Below are positions 10,038 to 15,267 of a DNA stretch of 64,000 bases, one piece after another. The position numbers and the translations under genes are program-made. The number at the start of each line of letters is the position of its first letter. The stretch's first letter is position 1. A model generated the notes under the pieces. The model ran no database searches. It worked only from the letters and a program-made list of their open reading frames with translations, and had not been told where the DNA came from. The DNA is from Pseudochryseolinea flava (GTDB lineage Bacteria; Bacteroidota; Bacteroidia; Cytophagales; Cyclobacteriaceae), in assembly GCF_003286915.1 (NCBI RefSeq), contig NZ_QMFY01000001.1, positions 434,001 through 498,000 of the forward strand, written 5' to 3'.

Positions 10038-11444
10038 CTAATCTACTTCTTGAAATCGTTTATCGCCACACATTCTAACAATTTTCGGCATAAATGACCC
10101 CAGCACTTCGACAAGATCTTTTTGATGATCCATCACCTGATGAATATCCTTATACGCCATCGGGGCTTCATCTAGCCCGGCGCCAATTAGTTCAACACCC
10201 GCTGCTTTCAAAAACTTGTTCACCGTACCCTGCAAAATTGTTTGCTTTGCCTTGGTACGCGACATTGTTCTTCCTGCGCCATGCGATGCAGAATTGATTG
10301 ATGCAGCAAGTCCTTTACCACGTACAATAAATCCAGGGGTCGCCATCGATCCAGGAATAATTCCGAGAACGCCTTTACCCGCAGGTGTTGCTCCCTTACG
10401 ATGCACGATCAATTCATCACCCTGCGCATCTTTTTCCTTCCAAGCAAAGTTGTGATGGTTCTCGATCATCGCTAGCGGCGTAGTTCTAAGTCCTATCGCA
10501 ATTCGTTCATGAATTTGATGATGGCAAGCCGAAGCATAATCACCAGCAAGATTCATCGCTAACCAATATTCTTGTCCCGCTTCGCTATCAAGATCTAACC
10601 AAGCTAAATGCTTTGCTACCTGTGGAAGCTTGCAAGTATTCATCGCTATTTGCGTGTAGTGCCGCGCGATATTTGCACCTAAACCTCTCGATCCCGAGTG
10701 CGATAACAAGGCAAGATAAATCCCTGGTGAAAGGTTAAATTCATTTATGGCATTCGTGATTTCCACTACCCCAAATTCAACGAAGTGATTACCACCACCT
10801 GAAGATCCGATTTGTTGCCACGCACGATCCTTTAAAGAACGAACAATCTCCAATTCAGAAAACTCTTTTCTCTCGAAGATCGCATGATCTTTAGGTCTCT
10901 TGAAAGTGGCTACACCAAATTGCGTATTGTTCAACAATATCTTTTTGAATTCATCTACGCGTGTTTCTAGTTGCGATGGTGGAATATCATAAATCGTCAT
11001 GCACATTCTGCATCCGATATCAACGCCTACGCCGTAAGGTATCACCGCATTCCGCGTAGCCAGCACACCACCAATCGGCAATCCATAACCTTGATGTGCA
11101 TCTGGCATCAACGCACCGGCTACCGTCACGGGAAGTCGCATCGCCGTTTCCATTTGGTCTAACGCACCTTGCTCAATAGCTTCAGCGCCATAAATCTGAT
11201 AAGGCATTGCCGAGGCATGGAGTTCTTTCACATCAATGGCCGGCTTTTGCAACGCAACGGCTACTGGGCCAAATGTTTCGTCATCAATGAAAGCCTCCGT
11301 ATTGGCAACGATCTTTTTCAGTATCTGGATTTTCTCCACTAATGGCGCAGTCGAATATTTTTCTTCTATCAACGTCAACGCTAACCCCAACGCATTCCCT
11401 TCCGGAAAACCTATTGCCAGCAAGTCATGTCCTGTCAATTTCAT
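10038..11444 (-). CDS. rtcB: RtcB family RNA ligase
   Basis: 468 residues, full length. RtcB joins RNA ends bearing 2',3'-cyclic phosphate or 3'-phosphate to 5'-OH ends, using GTP and Mn2+. Visible signatures: GVDIGCRM (metal-binding Asp/Cys), GGGNHFVEFG (metal His), SHSGSRGLG, NHHNFAWKE and SASHGAGRTMSR, whose His is the guanylylated nucleophile in the family. No frameshift or missing catalytic residue. It is the second gene after an SPFH/slipin protein, and the leader of that operon contains tRNA-like elements at 12918-13100. In other bacteria RtcB genes belong to RNA-repair operons induced by damaged tRNA; the same use is inferred here. Confidence 0.95.
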   Translation of the reverse strand: MKLTGHDLLAIGFPEGNALGLALTLIEEKYSTAPLVEKIQILKKIVANTEAFIDDETFGPVAVALQKPAIDVKELHASAMPYQIYGAEAIEQGALDQMETAMRLPVTVAGALMPDAHQGYGLPIGGVLATRNAVIPYGVGVDIGCRMCMTIYDIPPSQLETRVDEFKKILLNNTQFGVATFKRPKDHAIFERKEFSELEIVRSLKDRAWQQIGSSGGGNHFVEFGVVEITNAINEFNLSPGIYLALLSHSGSRGLGANIARHYTQIAMNTCKLPQVAKHLAWLDLDSEAGQEYWLAMNLAGDYASACHHQIHERIAIGLRTTPLAMIENHHNFAWKEKDAQGDELIVHRKGATPAGKGVLGIIPGSMATPGFIVRGKGLAASINSASHGAGRTMSRTKAKQTILQGTVNKFLKAAGVELIGAGLDEAPMAYKDIHQVMDHQKDLVEVLGSFMPKIVRMCGDKRFQEVD

Positions 11445-11499: not shown

Positions 11500-12600
11500 T
11501 TATTTTCTAGGGATAAAGATCTCTTTTAATTGGTCAACAATTTGCGTACCGCCAGACAAAGAGATCGTGTTGATTTTGTCGGCAATCTTTTCCACGTATT
11601 CCATTTCTTTCAATTTAAATAACATGGCGTTGTCCTCCATCAACTTCGCGGTATTCAGCAAGCTTCGCGTAGACGCTGTTTCTTCACGACGCATAATCAC
11701 GTTGGCTTCCGCTTTTTTCTGCGCGACCAACACTTGATTCATGATCTCTTTCACCTCGCCTGGCAAGATAATATCACGCACGCCGCAATCTCGAATTTGT
11801 ACGCCTAGGCGATTCGTCTTGTTCTTCAAGGTTTCGATCACGTAACCAGCGATAGCATCTTTTTTCTCAAGCAGATCATCCAGCGTATGCGTGCCCACAA
11901 TTTCTCGCAGTGCAAGTTGCATCAAGATATAAAGCTGCTTCTCGTAGTCTTTGTTATCTACAAGTGCTTTCTCAATGTCAACAACTTGATACTGCGCAAA
12001 AAAGTTAATCCGCAAAGCCGCCTTGTCCTTCGTAAGCATTTCTTGCCCAGAAATCTCGAGCTGCAATTGCCGTAGGTCAATCTTCACCACCGTAATCACT
12101 ATGGCATTATTCCAGAAGTAATACAGCCCGGTGTCGAGTACTTTAATCAACTTACCATCAACCATTAAAATTCCTTTCTGGAATGATTCGACTGTAAATA
12201 CACGGACAAATGGCGCAAACTCTTTTCGTGGCAACGTCGCCACATCGATCGCTTCATTAATATCGACTTTGGTTAAATCCGCTTTCACAAAATCATACTT
12301 CGTAACACCCTTCCAGAATGCGTATCGTCCTGCTGTTAACACCGTTTTAAAATTTCCGTTCTCATGCTGCAACACAATTTCATTATCGCGAACCTCAACA
12401 ACGATCAGCAACTCGGCTAATGCCGCGTCACGCAAAAGTATATTTAAATCAATCGGCGATTGAAAAGGTTTTGTAAGATCGTATTGGTATACCGTCTCAT
12501 TCAGCATCAACCAATGAGCACCTTCCGATAACACGCGTTTATAGTTTTCGTTTTTGAATACTAAACCTACTCTGCCAGTTGTAATCCTGATCCTTTTCAT
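11500..12600 (-). CDS. SPFH/band-7 (slipin-like) protein
   Basis: 366 residues. The SPFH core spans about 120-275: a FVRVFTVESFQKGILMVDG strand region, LDTGLYYFWN, then DKAALRINFFAQYQVVD and a coiled-coil segment rich in Ala/Glu (MNQVLVAQKKAEANVIMRRE). The first 110 residues are a second beta-rich half repeating the GLVFKN/GRYAFWKG pattern, so the N-terminus looks duplicated relative to classic slipins. No clear transmembrane helix is present, unlike stomatin-type members. It lies 55 bases upstream of rtcB; SPFH proteins are known companions of RtcB in bacterial RNA-repair operons, perhaps as a scaffold. Confidence 0.85.
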   Translation of the reverse strand: MKRIRITTGRVGLVFKNENYKRVLSEGAHWLMLNETVYQYDLTKPFQSPIDLNILLRDAALAELLIVVEVRDNEIVLQHENGNFKTVLTAGRYAFWKGVTKYDFVKADLTKVDINEAIDVATLPRKEFAPFVRVFTVESFQKGILMVDGKLIKVLDTGLYYFWNNAIVITVVKIDLRQLQLEISGQEMLTKDKAALRINFFAQYQVVDIEKALVDNKDYEKQLYILMQLALREIVGTHTLDDLLEKKDAIAGYVIETLKNKTNRLGVQIRDCGVRDIILPGEVKEIMNQVLVAQKKAEANVIMRREETASTRSLLNTAKLMEDNAMLFKLKEMEYVEKIADKINTISLSGGTQIVDQLKEIFIPRK

Positions 12601-12768: not shown

Positions 12769-12936
12769 GCAGAAGGCGACGTCGATAAAAGTTTTCCGCG
12801 TCACCTTTCGGTATCCTCACCGATCTAGTTTTCAAATGATTGATGGTGTATTTCCGCAGGCGGCATGAGATACATACATCAAACACACTCCGAACTACCT
12901 TCAAGAGTGACCATTTTAGAAGGGGTCGCCTTCTGC
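12769..12936 (-). repeat. 12-bp long-range inverted repeat in the leader
   Basis: GCAGAAGGCGAC at 12769-12780 is exactly reverse-complementary to GTCGCCTTCTGC at 12925-12936. Each arm also takes part in a local hairpin: 12918-12934 (AGAAGG/CCTTCT, 6 bp) and 12775-12805 (GGCGACG with CGTCACC, 7 bp with one G-U in the minus-strand RNA). The local and long-range pairings are mutually exclusive. Confidence 0.7.
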
Positions 12937-13005
12937 TGGGTGGATAAAAGTCCACTGCTCTACCGTTGAGCTACCACTGTTCAGGTGGGTAGGATTCGAA
13001 CCTAC
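12918..13005 (-). ncRNA. tRNA-like unit B: T-arm and acceptor placed before D-arm and anticodon arm
   Basis: Read on the minus strand: T-arm GTAGG-TTCGAAT-CCTAC (13005-12989), acceptor-like CCACCTG (12988-12982), two bases, ACAGTGG (12980-12974), TA, D-arm GCTC-AACGGTA-GAGC (12971-12957), A, then an anticodon-like arm GTGGA-CTTTTA-TCCAC (12955-12940), CCAGC and a hairpin of T-arm size (12934-12918) with a non-T loop. CCACCTG pairs with CAGTGG if one C bulges. The anticodon loop has six rather than seven bases. The order matches the better-preserved unit A, but this copy looks eroded or modified, so it is probably not a functional translational tRNA. Confidence 0.55.
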
Positions 13006-13013
13006 AACGTCAA

Positions 13014-13081
13014 CCTACTGCTCTACCAAATGAGCTATCTCACTTAAAGCGAGAGAAGGATTCGAACCTCCTGCACGTAGA
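13014..13081 (-). tRNA. Candidate circularly permuted tRNA (unit A)
   Basis: Read on the minus strand: anticodon 3' strand TCTAC (13081-13077), variable GTGCA, T-arm GGAGG-TTCGAAT-CCTTC (13071-13055), acceptor 3' strand TCTCGCT (13054-13048), linker TTA, acceptor 5' strand AGTGAGA (13044-13038), TA, D-arm GCTC-ATTTGGTA-GAGC (13035-13020), A, anticodon 5' strand GTAGG (13018-13014). Rejoined this gives 7/7 acceptor pairs (one G-U), 5/5 anticodon-stem pairs (one G-U), U8, A14, G18G19, A21 and A58. The linear alternative (AGTGAGA with CCACCTG after the next T-arm) hardly pairs and leaves only 13 bases where 22 are needed. The anticodon cannot be fixed; one join gives TTGACCA (GAC). CCA is not encoded. 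Confidence 0.6.
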
Positions 13082-13186
13082 TGGTTGAAACAACATCGCA
13101 CTAAGCAGCATATTGAGAAGCATTGCCGTCAATACTATGGCGCAAAAAAAAACGCACATCAGGTCTTAGTGTCCTGTCTTTCTTCG

Positions 13187-13242: not shown

Positions 13243-13325
13243 TTGTGACTCTACCTGGATTCGAACCAGAATTCCCTCTCGGGCAACAAGGCTATAAATG
13301 CGCTTCCTTACTTTGTTTCTCCGAG
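13243..13325 (-). ncRNA. Isolated T-arm/acceptor-3' element with upstream hairpin (unit D)
   Basis: On the minus strand a T-arm TCTGG-TTCGAAT-CCAGG (13270-13252) is followed by an acceptor-like TAGAGTC. Upstream is a long imperfect hairpin (CTCGG at 13325-13321 with CCGAG at 13282-13278, inner AAGG 13309-13306 with CCTT 13291-13288). I find no D-arm and no GACTCTA partner nearby, so only the 3' part of a tRNA is recognisable. It is either a tRNA relic or a deliberate T-arm mimic. Confidence 0.4.
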
Positions 13326-13394
13326 CGACATTTCAGTGCATCTGCAAACGCTAGCCACTACTACGCGAAGTTGTAGCGGCGTATTACCTGTACA

Positions 13395-13418
13395 CTATGG
13401 AACGTACTTTTACCATAG
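13395..13418. other. Perfect 6-bp hairpin near the leader start
   Basis: CTATGG (13395-13400) and CCATAG (13413-13418) are perfectly complementary with a 12-base loop. It may be a structured start of the leader RNA or an operator for the divergent WYL protein. Confidence 0.4.
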
Positions 13419-13548
13419 ACTTTTCCTTTTAAGCTATAGAGCCATTTACAATACCATTCCGTTTGAATGATGACTCAAAGGTGAACCCCTTCTACGCAGT
13501 CTTTTTGCGCAGTGAATATTTTTTAGTTTTTTTATCAAAATTCTTTTT

Positions 13549-15267
13549 ATGCCCGTCAATAGGAACGCCCTGATTCGTTATCGAACCATAGACAACTGCC
13601 TGAGAAACAGACAACGCCGTTGGACGCTAGAAGACTTGATAGAAGCGTGCTCTGAAGCACTTTACGAATATGAAGGTATTGACAAAGGCCTAAGCAAAAG
13701 ATCTGTCCAGATGGATATTCAAATGATGCGCAGCGACAAACTCGGATACAATGCGCCCATCATCGTGCTTGAAAAGAAATACTATACTTACGACGATCCC
13801 GACTATTCGATCACCAACATTCCTTTAACAGATCAAGATCTCAATAAGCTTACTGAAGTGGTTGAGATTTTACGGCAGTTTAAAGGATTCAGTCATTTCC
13901 AAGAACTGAGTGGAATGGTGCAACGACTTGAAAACAAAATTCATTCCGCCAAAACGAAGCAAGAACCCATAATTGATTTTGAAAAAAATGAAAACTTGAA
14001 GGGCCTTGAGTACATCGAAACATTATATCAGTCCATCATTAATAAGTGCGCAATTGAAATTGTATATCAATCATTCAAGGCACGAAGCGCCAATACTTTT
14101 AACTTCCACCCTCACTACCTGAAAGAATATCGGAACCGATGGTTTGTTGTGGGCGTAAAAAAGAAGAACACACCGATCATGGTTCTTGCATTGGATAGAA
14201 TCATTTCCGTTTCACCTTGCGCGCTTAAGTATGTTTCAAACCAAGTTAGTTTGCCAGAATATTTTAATGACGCACTCGGTGTAACGATAAATGTTAACGC
14301 AAGAGTTGAAAACGTTGTGCTGCTAGCAGACCATGAAACAGCGCCCTACATCGCAACGAAGCCGATCCATCACTCACAAGAAAAAATATCCAGCGATGCG
14401 AGTGGCGTAGTGTTCGCATTAAAAGTGCAAATTAACCCCGAACTTGAAAGGGAAATACTCGGTTTTGGCTCACGTGTTAGAATATTGGCTCCCGAGAAAC
14501 TAAAAAAGCGCATCACTGGAATTTTCGCCGATGCCTTAGAATCGTACATGCACGAGTTCAGTCCGATAGCGCTCACTAACGCCGCGCAAAAATTAATTCA
14601 TCGAGGATCCTCTATCATCAATCATGTATTCAACCGTAAAGAGGTGAACTACATGCGCACTGCCATCTACGAGTATTTTAAGAAAGCAGCGCTTCCAACC
14701 GACACCCATGCCGTTAGAAATCTATTTCAAGAAATTCCTGCATTAAATTTTTTGCTGCAGCACACCAATATCAAAACCATTTTAGACGCTGTAGCACCCA
14801 ATCTTCGTTTAACGAAAGCCATCTACTTTGACAAAACACCCACTAGCAACTGGTACGTAACTTGGCACCAAGACATCATCATCAATGTGTCAGAAAAAAT
14901 TGAAACGGAAGGGTTCACGGGTTGGACAAAAAAATCCGGCGTCCATGGTGTGTGCCCTCCTGATGAAGTTCTTAAAAATACCCTTACGATCAGAATACAC
15001 CTTGATGACACAGATGAAAATAATGGTGCACTGAAAGTACTACCCGGATCACATCATAAACGATTTACAGACGAAGAGATTTCAACGATCACGAAGAACA
15101 GTATACCCAACGTTTGTGAAGTGAGAGCTGGTGGCGTTCATTTAATGCGTCCGTTGATTTTACACGCGTCGTCGAAAGCCACCTCCCAAAATCGGAGACG
15201 CGTTCTTCATCTCGAGTTTAATACAATGACGCTACCAAATGGCTTACAGTGGGCAGAACAAGAATAA
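13549..15267 (+). CDS. WYL-domain regulator fused to a phytanoyl-CoA-dioxygenase-like (PhyH) domain
   Basis: 572 residues in one uninterrupted frame. Residues 1-110 form the winged-helix N-terminus seen in WYL regulators (RYRTIDNCLR, RSVQMDIQMMR). Residues 150-225 are the WYL core (IEIVYQSF, HPHYLKEYRNRWFVVG, ALDRI), and 240-345 a WCX-like C-terminal extension. From Met369 follows about 204 residues of a PhyH-type Fe(II)/2-oxoglutarate dioxygenase with the HxD motif in TWHQDIII, GALKVLPGSHHKR, and distal His and Arg in LHASSKATSQNRRRVLHLEF. The two halves are families normally found apart. Divergent from the tRNA-like leader and slipin-rtcB, so it is the best candidate for their regulator; what the oxygenase modifies is unknown. 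Confidence 0.85.
   Translation: MPVNRNALIRYRTIDNCLRNRQRRWTLEDLIEACSEALYEYEGIDKGLSKRSVQMDIQMMRSDKLGYNAPIIVLEKKYYTYDDPDYSITNIPLTDQDLNKLTEVVEILRQFKGFSHFQELSGMVQRLENKIHSAKTKQEPIIDFEKNENLKGLEYIETLYQSIINKCAIEIVYQSFKARSANTFNFHPHYLKEYRNRWFVVGVKKKNTPIMVLALDRIISVSPCALKYVSNQVSLPEYFNDALGVTINVNARVENVVLLADHETAPYIATKPIHHSQEKISSDASGVVFALKVQINPELEREILGFGSRVRILAPEKLKKRITGIFADALESYMHEFSPIALTNAAQKLIHRGSSIINHVFNRKEVNYMRTAIYEYFKKAALPTDTHAVRNLFQEIPALNFLLQHTNIKTILDAVAPNLRLTKAIYFDKTPTSNWYVTWHQDIIINVSEKIETEGFTGWTKKSGVHGVCPPDEVLKNTLTIRIHLDDTDENNGALKVLPGSHHKRFTDEEISTITKNSIPNVCEVRAGGVHLMRPLILHASSKATSQNRRRVLHLEFNTMTLPNGLQWAEQE

Follow-up and report, generated by a model that had tools for sequence, protein, structure and literature searches.

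The window analysed here is a 64,000-nt stretch of the Pseudochryseolinea flava genome. Between a divergent WYL-PhyH gene and the slipin and rtcB genes, its minus strand encodes a predicted RNA with two tRNA-mimicking units, each assembled from tRNA parts in circularly permuted order. The rtcB gene is on the same strand, which gives the mimic RNA a placement beside rtcB as in YrlA operons. The features referred to below are listed by position, with the evidence for each assignment in parentheses.

10038-11444, minus strand: rtcB, RNA 3'-phosphate ligase (Pfam PF01139, E = 4.2e-82)
11500-12600, minus strand: slipin, an SPFH/Band-7 domain protein (Pfam PF01145, E = 3.6e-31)
12909-12933, minus strand: H-type pseudoknot with stem 1 GAAGG/CCTTC, stem 2 GACC/GGTC and the A-rich loop TAAAAT
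12940-12955, minus strand: anticodon-type stem-loop GTGGA-CTTTTA-TCCAC with a 6-nt loop, 3' of D arm 2
12957-13005, minus strand: unit 2, second permuted tRNA mimic (YrlA 33.0 bits; covariance model R1, defined below, 43.5 bits; minimum-energy fold)
12957-12971, minus strand: unit 2 D arm
12985-12988 with 12974-12977, minus strand: unit 2 short acceptor hairpin
12989-13005, minus strand: unit 2 T arm
13014-13081, minus strand: unit 1, permuted tRNA mimic (Rfam YrlA match, pairing tests, covariation, R1)
13014-13018, minus strand: unit 1 anticodon stem, 5' strand
13020-13035, minus strand: unit 1 D arm
13048-13054 with 13038-13044, minus strand: unit 1 acceptor
13055-13071, minus strand: unit 1 T arm
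13072-13076, minus strand: unit 1 variable region
13077-13081, minus strand: unit 1 anticodon stem, 3' strand
13247-13443, minus strand: separate conserved RNA with a linear tRNA-like frame and an insert, in the same intergenic stretch
13549-15267, plus strand: divergent WYL-domain regulator fused to a PhyH-like domain (Pfam)

Read along the minus strand, positions 13014-13081 comprise TCTAC, GTGCA, GGAGG-TTCGAAT-CCTTC, TCTCGCT, TTA, AGTGAGA, TA, GCTC-ATTTGGTA-GAGC, A and GTAGG. The first-pass annotation had recognised here a tRNA whose parts are circularly permuted, and re-reading of the sequence agrees with it: the acceptor pairs at seven of seven positions and the anticodon stem at five of five, with one G-U pair each, and U15 faces A48. 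If the positions of the T and D arms and the register are taken as given, the probability that all 12 pairs arise by chance is ~2e-5 at the local base composition. ARAGORN, which was applied to the window, to 35 of 80 related slipin loci and to 9 of 10 loci from a genome survey, found no tRNA at the mimic site of the window. The Rfam tRNA model scores 24.6 bits across the D arm of unit 1 and the T arm of unit 2 (D1-T2), and 27.2-29.4 bits in three relatives (L004, L041 and L055). The energy of the minimum-energy fold of the window RNA is not unusually low (z -0.93). In that fold both units have their T arm, acceptor and D arm, and the unit 2 anticodon arm and the first pseudoknot stem form as well. 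Unit 1 is closed in it by the helix UCAACC/GGUUGA, which takes the place of the 5-bp anticodon stem, so that the two helices compete in the window sequence.

Unit 2, which is absent from the earlier description, follows unit 1 at once (YrlA match at 12957-13008), and the two units lie within ~125 nt. Its acceptor hairpin has only 4 bp in the window. The anticodon-type arm that follows D arm 2 is of the UUU type; with its 6-nt loop, it falls outside the count of arms given below.

Conservation was assessed with 80 slipin homologues and their flanks, the best 80 of at least 566 relatives, which together with the window make 81 loci. The homologues are labelled as Bacteroidota except for L031 (a Chlorobiota MAG), L032 (bacterium) and L038 (a Thalassobius-labelled MAG). 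D arms downstream of T arms were picked by the D-arm motif alone, blind to the acceptor. Of 138 T arms with a good D arm in the 81 loci, 102 pair in the permuted order at 6 or 7 of the 7 acceptor positions, compared with 7.3% when partners were shuffled between loci. Tandem architecture, that is, unit 1 and then a second T arm, could be parsed in 62 of the 81 loci; a minimum of four acceptor pairs out of seven was required for their selection, and the unselected figure is the 102 of 138. Alignment A1 comprises 52 of the 62 tandem loci, the 10 with acceptor linkers of 18-22 nt having been left out. Over these 52 unit-1 sequences the permuted structure is kept in 93.1% of cells (shuffled, 72.4%; slid, at most 52.4%), and 245 cells show double changes in the permuted order (shuffled, 72; slid, at most 52). 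Changes on both sides occur in 20 of the 22 permuted pairs, including all seven acceptor pairs, all five anticodon-stem pairs and the 15-48 tertiary pair. The latter is Watson-Crick in 61 of the 62 loci, as G-C in 54, A-U in five and U-A in two, one of which is the window; none of 10000 shuffles equalled this. The anticodon stem is the weakest helix, with 83.9% of cells kept and the outermost pair missing in 20 of 51 loci. Compensatory changes in the permuted acceptor and anticodon stems, which the first-pass annotation had named as the check on its proposal, thus support the permuted order strongly.

A linear tRNA was also considered for the window. The unit 1 acceptor pairs with the T2 side at a mean of 3.7 of 7 positions, against 3.5 when shuffled, which is chance. 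The linear reading was rejected on this result and on the permuted covariation.

The association of the permuted fold with slipin and rtcB likewise holds. Covariance model R1 was built from 52 slipin-locus unit-1 sequences only. An R1 match of at least 42 bits lies upstream of slipin in 15 of the 19 loci in which no tandem could be parsed. In the remaining four of the 81 loci (L009, L012, L013 and L015) no mimic unit was found upstream of slipin, and RtcB and WYL matches are absent from them as well; L009 has only 226 nt of sequence upstream of slipin. The slipin homologues of L012, L013 and L015 have 69-70% identity and are preceded by a tRNA-like T arm ~55 nt before the gene. Of the 74 loci whose sequence extends far enough downstream of slipin to include RtcB, 44 have it. 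A divergent WYL relative is present in 28 of the 80 slipin relatives and a PhyH match in 13; in 11 of these the PhyH match lies 1038-1044 nt from the start of the WYL match. Since this spacing agrees with that of the fused gene in the window (~1035 nt), the WYL/WCX-PhyH fusion looks conserved. A second RtcB match (G000:C11:431927-432973) lies on the same contig just outside the window, ~11 kb from the window rtcB.

Ordinary tRNA genes were found by ARAGORN in 23 of the 35 slipin loci scanned, up to 19 in one. They raise the question of whether the mimic is the remnant of a decaying tRNA array in which deletions left a T arm and a D arm from adjacent tRNA genes side by side, the more so as tandem tRNA genes can imitate the permuted model. 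The permuted pairs, however, covary, 20 of the 22 having changed on both strands, and this refutes the decay of an array, which we regard as the least probable of all explanations. In addition, linear acceptor pairing stands at chance, and the D1-T2 gap is shorter than the 23 nt needed for an anticodon arm and a variable loop in 60 of the 62 tandem loci.

Across the tandem loci the T arm of unit 2 starts 7-30 nt after the D arm of unit 1. Anticodon arms with a 5-bp stem, a 7-nt loop and Y32, U33 and R37 are present at least once in 44 of the 62 loci, where shuffles gave a mean of 2.0 and a maximum of 5; in 17 loci there is more than one. Among the 63 arms 21 different loop triplets occur, the commonest being UUU (12), CAA (11), GUU (7) and GAA (6). 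A few arms, some singletons among them, are doubtful owing to overlaps in L044 and L073 and to one stop-codon triplet. The anticodon in the arm after D arm 2 varies between species. Because this half of the RNA keeps the linear order, the Rfam tRNA model matches the segment from D arm 2 through the anticodon arm to the pseudoknot stem, with 33.5-40.2 bits in five loci (L003, L039, L004, L041 and L019).

The pseudoknot was first recognised by a pattern that occurs in 13 of the 81 loci, and a wider pattern is found in 55, against 7-15 in shuffles. When the search was anchored on stem 1, stem 2 could form in 45 of 51 loci (1000 shuffles: mean 21, maximum 30); the anchor is missing in 30 of the 81 loci, and some of the 4-mers counted do not stand in the register expected. 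Stem-2 sequences are diverse and include GACC/GGTC, CACC/GGTG, GCCA/TGGC and GATC/GATC. Alignment A2 (MAFFT) holds 23 of 24 chosen loci, L035 having been dropped for want of an anchor. The second strand is misaligned in A2, which was therefore replaced by the anchored test for the pseudoknot counts.

The first-pass annotation knew of no permuted tRNA beside a bacterial rtcB. Permuted tRNA mimics beside rtcB are, in fact, already known: YrlA, described from the rsr-yrlBA-rtcBA operons of Salmonella, is one (PMC7790460). A solved Y RNA structure (PDB 6CU1) is reported to superpose on tRNAs with a circular permutation (PMC11472068). In Ro60 systems, as described in PMC8394870, a Y RNA ties Rsr, bound through its stem, to PNPase, bound through its tRNA-like end. 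YrlA (RF02553) is the best Rfam match of both window units, with 34.8 bits for unit 1 (13010-13088) and 33.0 bits for unit 2, and shares with them the permuted mimicry of T arm, closed acceptor and D arm as well as the place beside rtcB. Both scores are below the YrlA gathering score of 69 bits, as are those of the Ro60-linked RNAs of L096 (34.9 and 36.3 bits). The YrlA model matches at least one unit in nine of nine slipin relatives scanned (25.9-47.7 bits). At E up to 1 it yields two matches in the 6.5-Mb genome of the window, which are the two window units. At the same threshold it also matches weakly in 13 of 14 control genomes, in none above the cut-off, so that a weak YrlA score lacks specificity.

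R1 was run on 296 Bacteroidota genomes and matches somewhere in 291 of them. As a census tool by itself R1 was rejected, since tandem ordinary tRNA genes match it too, and position next to slipin or Ro60 was used instead. Among the matches listed, 16 reach at least 60 bits: 10 at slipin loci, three at Ro60 loci and three elsewhere, the last (84-116 nt) being probably tandem tRNA genes. Slipin is present in 14 of the 296 genomes, and 12 of these have an R1 match 324-606 nt upstream of it among the matches listed; the other two are G002, with a weaker match of 39.1 bits, and G249, with a T-arm match only (12.7 bits). Ro60 is present in 23 genomes, of which 18 have a same-strand R1 match within 2.5 kb, as compared by hand among the matches listed; in the other five (G034, G077, G191, G272 and G283) the matches listed include none near Ro60. 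In G231 the gene order RtcR, Ro60, four R1 matches, RtcB is that of a classical repair operon. Thus R1 finds both the slipin RNA and candidate Ro60-linked RNAs, and the two share one fold and one genomic company. Their common descent is likely on these comparisons, the alternative being convergence from tRNA. No Ro60/TROVE match was found in the genome of the window, which is 99.3% complete, and Ro60 is missing in 13 of the 14 slipin genomes as it is in 273 of the 296 overall. One genome has both slipin and Ro60 where 1.1 would be expected, which is no evidence for or against mutual exclusion.

The original interpretation of this order was a tRNA gene in permuted form that matures into a functional tRNA once its ends have been joined, for example by RtcB. 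Such joining is conceivable for unit 1 alone, because unit 2 already has an intact anticodon arm. The complete tRNA core with its tertiary signature and the RtcB encoded next door speak for joining, as do unit 1 acceptor strands that lie 18-22 nt apart in 10 of the 62 tandem loci and a CCA within the first five linker bases in 12 of the 102 well-paired units; two of these 12 (L032 -1090 and L043 -923) lie among tRNA genes. The acceptor linker, however, has 3 nt and no CCA in the window, and is at most 5 nt long in 49 of the 62 unit 1 copies and in 74 of the 102 units overall, which is too short to free both acceptor ends. Furthermore, both Rfam and R1 place the RNA with Y RNAs, and the flanking joining helix is not clearly conserved over the 62 loci. 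End joining is in any case not needed, since the 'open' anticodon is where the domain meets the rest of the transcript. The proposed joining is therefore not supported, and we consider a joined, functional tRNA very improbable. Some units with a long linker or a CCA could be processed. In unit 2 of five loci (L039, L058, L076, L077 and L081) the acceptor linker starts with CCA or ACCA, possibly a trace of real tRNA 3' ends. The permuted tRNA genes of archaea and algae, as presented in PMC3978253, share with the window RNA the rotated order of tRNA parts; the window RNA differs from them in having neither processable acceptor ends nor CCA and no clearly conserved joining helix.

The helix across the open anticodon that had been proposed along with joining, as reminiscent of a bulge-helix-bulge, does form in the window fold as UCAACC/GGUUGA, which is also present in the Rfam YrlA alignment of the window. 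It forms at the expense of the anticodon stem, and no clear excess of such helices was seen over the 62 loci. Outer helices of at least six pairs that reach into the anticodon strand occur in 28 of the 62 loci, against 34% in shuffles. Further out, the median complement is 7 in the observed and 7 in the shuffled sequences of the 62 loci, a comparison of low power given that eight Ro60-linked matches gave values of 6-10. An outward stem test without bulges was uninformative and was replaced by these tests. Since T2 starts so soon after D1, there is little room for a Ro-binding stem.

Comparison of the sequences establishes the predicted fold, its conservation, its link with slipin and its structural likeness to the Ro60-linked Y RNAs. 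The reading we favour, with a probability of roughly 0.68, is that the RNA is a YrlA-type mimic with Y-RNA architecture and the RNA part of a Ro-less slipin-RtcB tRNA-repair system. It would consist of two permuted domains, each with a T arm, a closed acceptor hairpin and a D arm, the second running into an anticodon-type arm and then an H-type pseudoknot. The RNA would be transcribed with or ahead of slipin-rtcB, and slipin, as an SPFH protein, would take the scaffold place of Ro60. Proteins that bind tRNA would bind the mimic, anticodon nucleases would be drawn to the anticodon arm as a surrogate substrate or bait, and RtcB would reseal the cut tRNAs. On the simplest joint reading, the RNA would gather or mislead tRNA-acting enzymes beside the slipin scaffold, and the mimic itself would not be joined into a working tRNA. 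The scaffold or bait function in slipin-RtcB tRNA repair is what we infer from this arrangement.

Compared with YrlA, the window RNA differs in several respects. Its genome is without Ro60, and there is no clear sign of a Ro-binding stem by the weak tests described above. Its two units lie within ~125 nt, and unit 2 is followed by an anticodon arm and a pseudoknot. In place of Rsr and RtcR, the locus has slipin and WYL genes.

In 2016, Burroughs and Aravind reportedly noted a novel tRNA-like molecule that goes with SPFH/Band-7 scaffold modules of RNA-repair systems. The window RNA is likewise tRNA-like and adjoins Band-7 and RtcB genes, and their molecule is very probably the slipin-rtcB mimic RNA. 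What may be new here is the tandem, the varying anticodon arms, the pseudoknot and the absence of Ro60 from this genome. A literature search over titles and abstract openings, which did not extend to the key Y RNA papers or the 2016 paper, returned nothing on a permuted slipin-rtcB RNA.

The main rival, as ranked in our analysis, is a cis-acting leader, in which the mimic and the pseudoknot would control slipin-rtcB, with cleavage of the arm by a tRNA nuclease or the binding of a protein as the switch. Compact H-type pseudoknots with an A-rich loop, like the one in the window, are common in regulatory leaders. A leader would also account for the steady place of the RNA upstream of slipin on the same strand (324-606 nt in 12 of the 14 sampled genomes, among the matches listed), and a scan of the minus strand, itself a weak test, showed no terminator-like site between the RNA and slipin. 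Promoter and terminator scans yielded nothing firm overall. Against control in cis, the start codon of slipin is ~300 nt away from the pseudoknot, and Y RNAs of the same fold are described as acting in trans (PMC8394870). We consider the leader unlikely, although it is the alternative to be taken most seriously.

A bolder version of the favoured Y-RNA reading may be put forward tentatively, and we hold it slightly less probable than the leader. The slipin RNAs would form a Ro-independent Y-RNA lineage that acts as an anticodon bait, with arms swapped between species to match the anticodon nucleases that they encounter, slipin as a membrane scaffold, and RtcB together with spare tRNAs restoring the tRNA pool. 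If so, the permuted double domain would be permanently unchargeable. The triplets of the anticodon arms include UUU, CAA, GUU, GAA, GUA, GUC, GUG and CAU, and there are often two arms per RNA. In the Salmonella study, competitive inhibition of an anticodon nuclease is put forward as a possible YrlA role only (PMC7790460). What is at stake is the reason why Y RNAs that mimic tRNAs are encoded next to RtcB. At the slipin loci the permuted mimic keeps its link with rtcB, the anticodon arms are naturally swapped and tRNA genes lie nearby in many species, which makes the bait idea directly testable.

The tRNA genes, often in arrays, are located 5' of the mimic RNA or 3' of slipin in L006, L007, L019, L039, L041, L047, L070, L077 and L079. 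Ordinary tRNA genes at slipin loci may be spare tRNAs for the repair system. In the trn operon system of Anabaena, TrcR is described as the repressor of rtcB, of a slipin gene and of a tRNA array that is induced by stress (PMC10272220). The co-regulation of a tRNA array, rtcB and a slipin gene resembles the grouping seen here; the Anabaena genes are, however, scattered under TrcR, as opposed to a single locus beside a WYL regulator, and the excerpted text of that study mentions no permuted RNA.

The separate RNA at 13247-13443 is located upstream of the mimic and is 197 nt long in the window and ~180-212 nt in relatives. It has a linear tRNA-like frame, with a D-like arm, a T arm and a 7-bp acceptor, and a structured insert of ~130 nt in place of the anticodon arm. 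All 18 parsed loci have six or seven of the seven acceptor pairs. The motif occurs in 19 of the 81 slipin loci, and the RNA is single-copy in the genome of the window. Rfam searches at E up to 1 gave no credible family over 13247-13443, with one family overlapping its edge and FsrA and others elsewhere, and no family was seen over its counterpart in four relatives. The energy of the single-sequence fold is ordinary (z -0.64). Alignment A3 comprises 18 of the 19 motif loci, L074 having been left out because no T arm was found in it. The consensus fold of these 18 sequences has 48 pairs, 34 of which are altered at both positions in one or more sequences, and this RNA may merit separate study.
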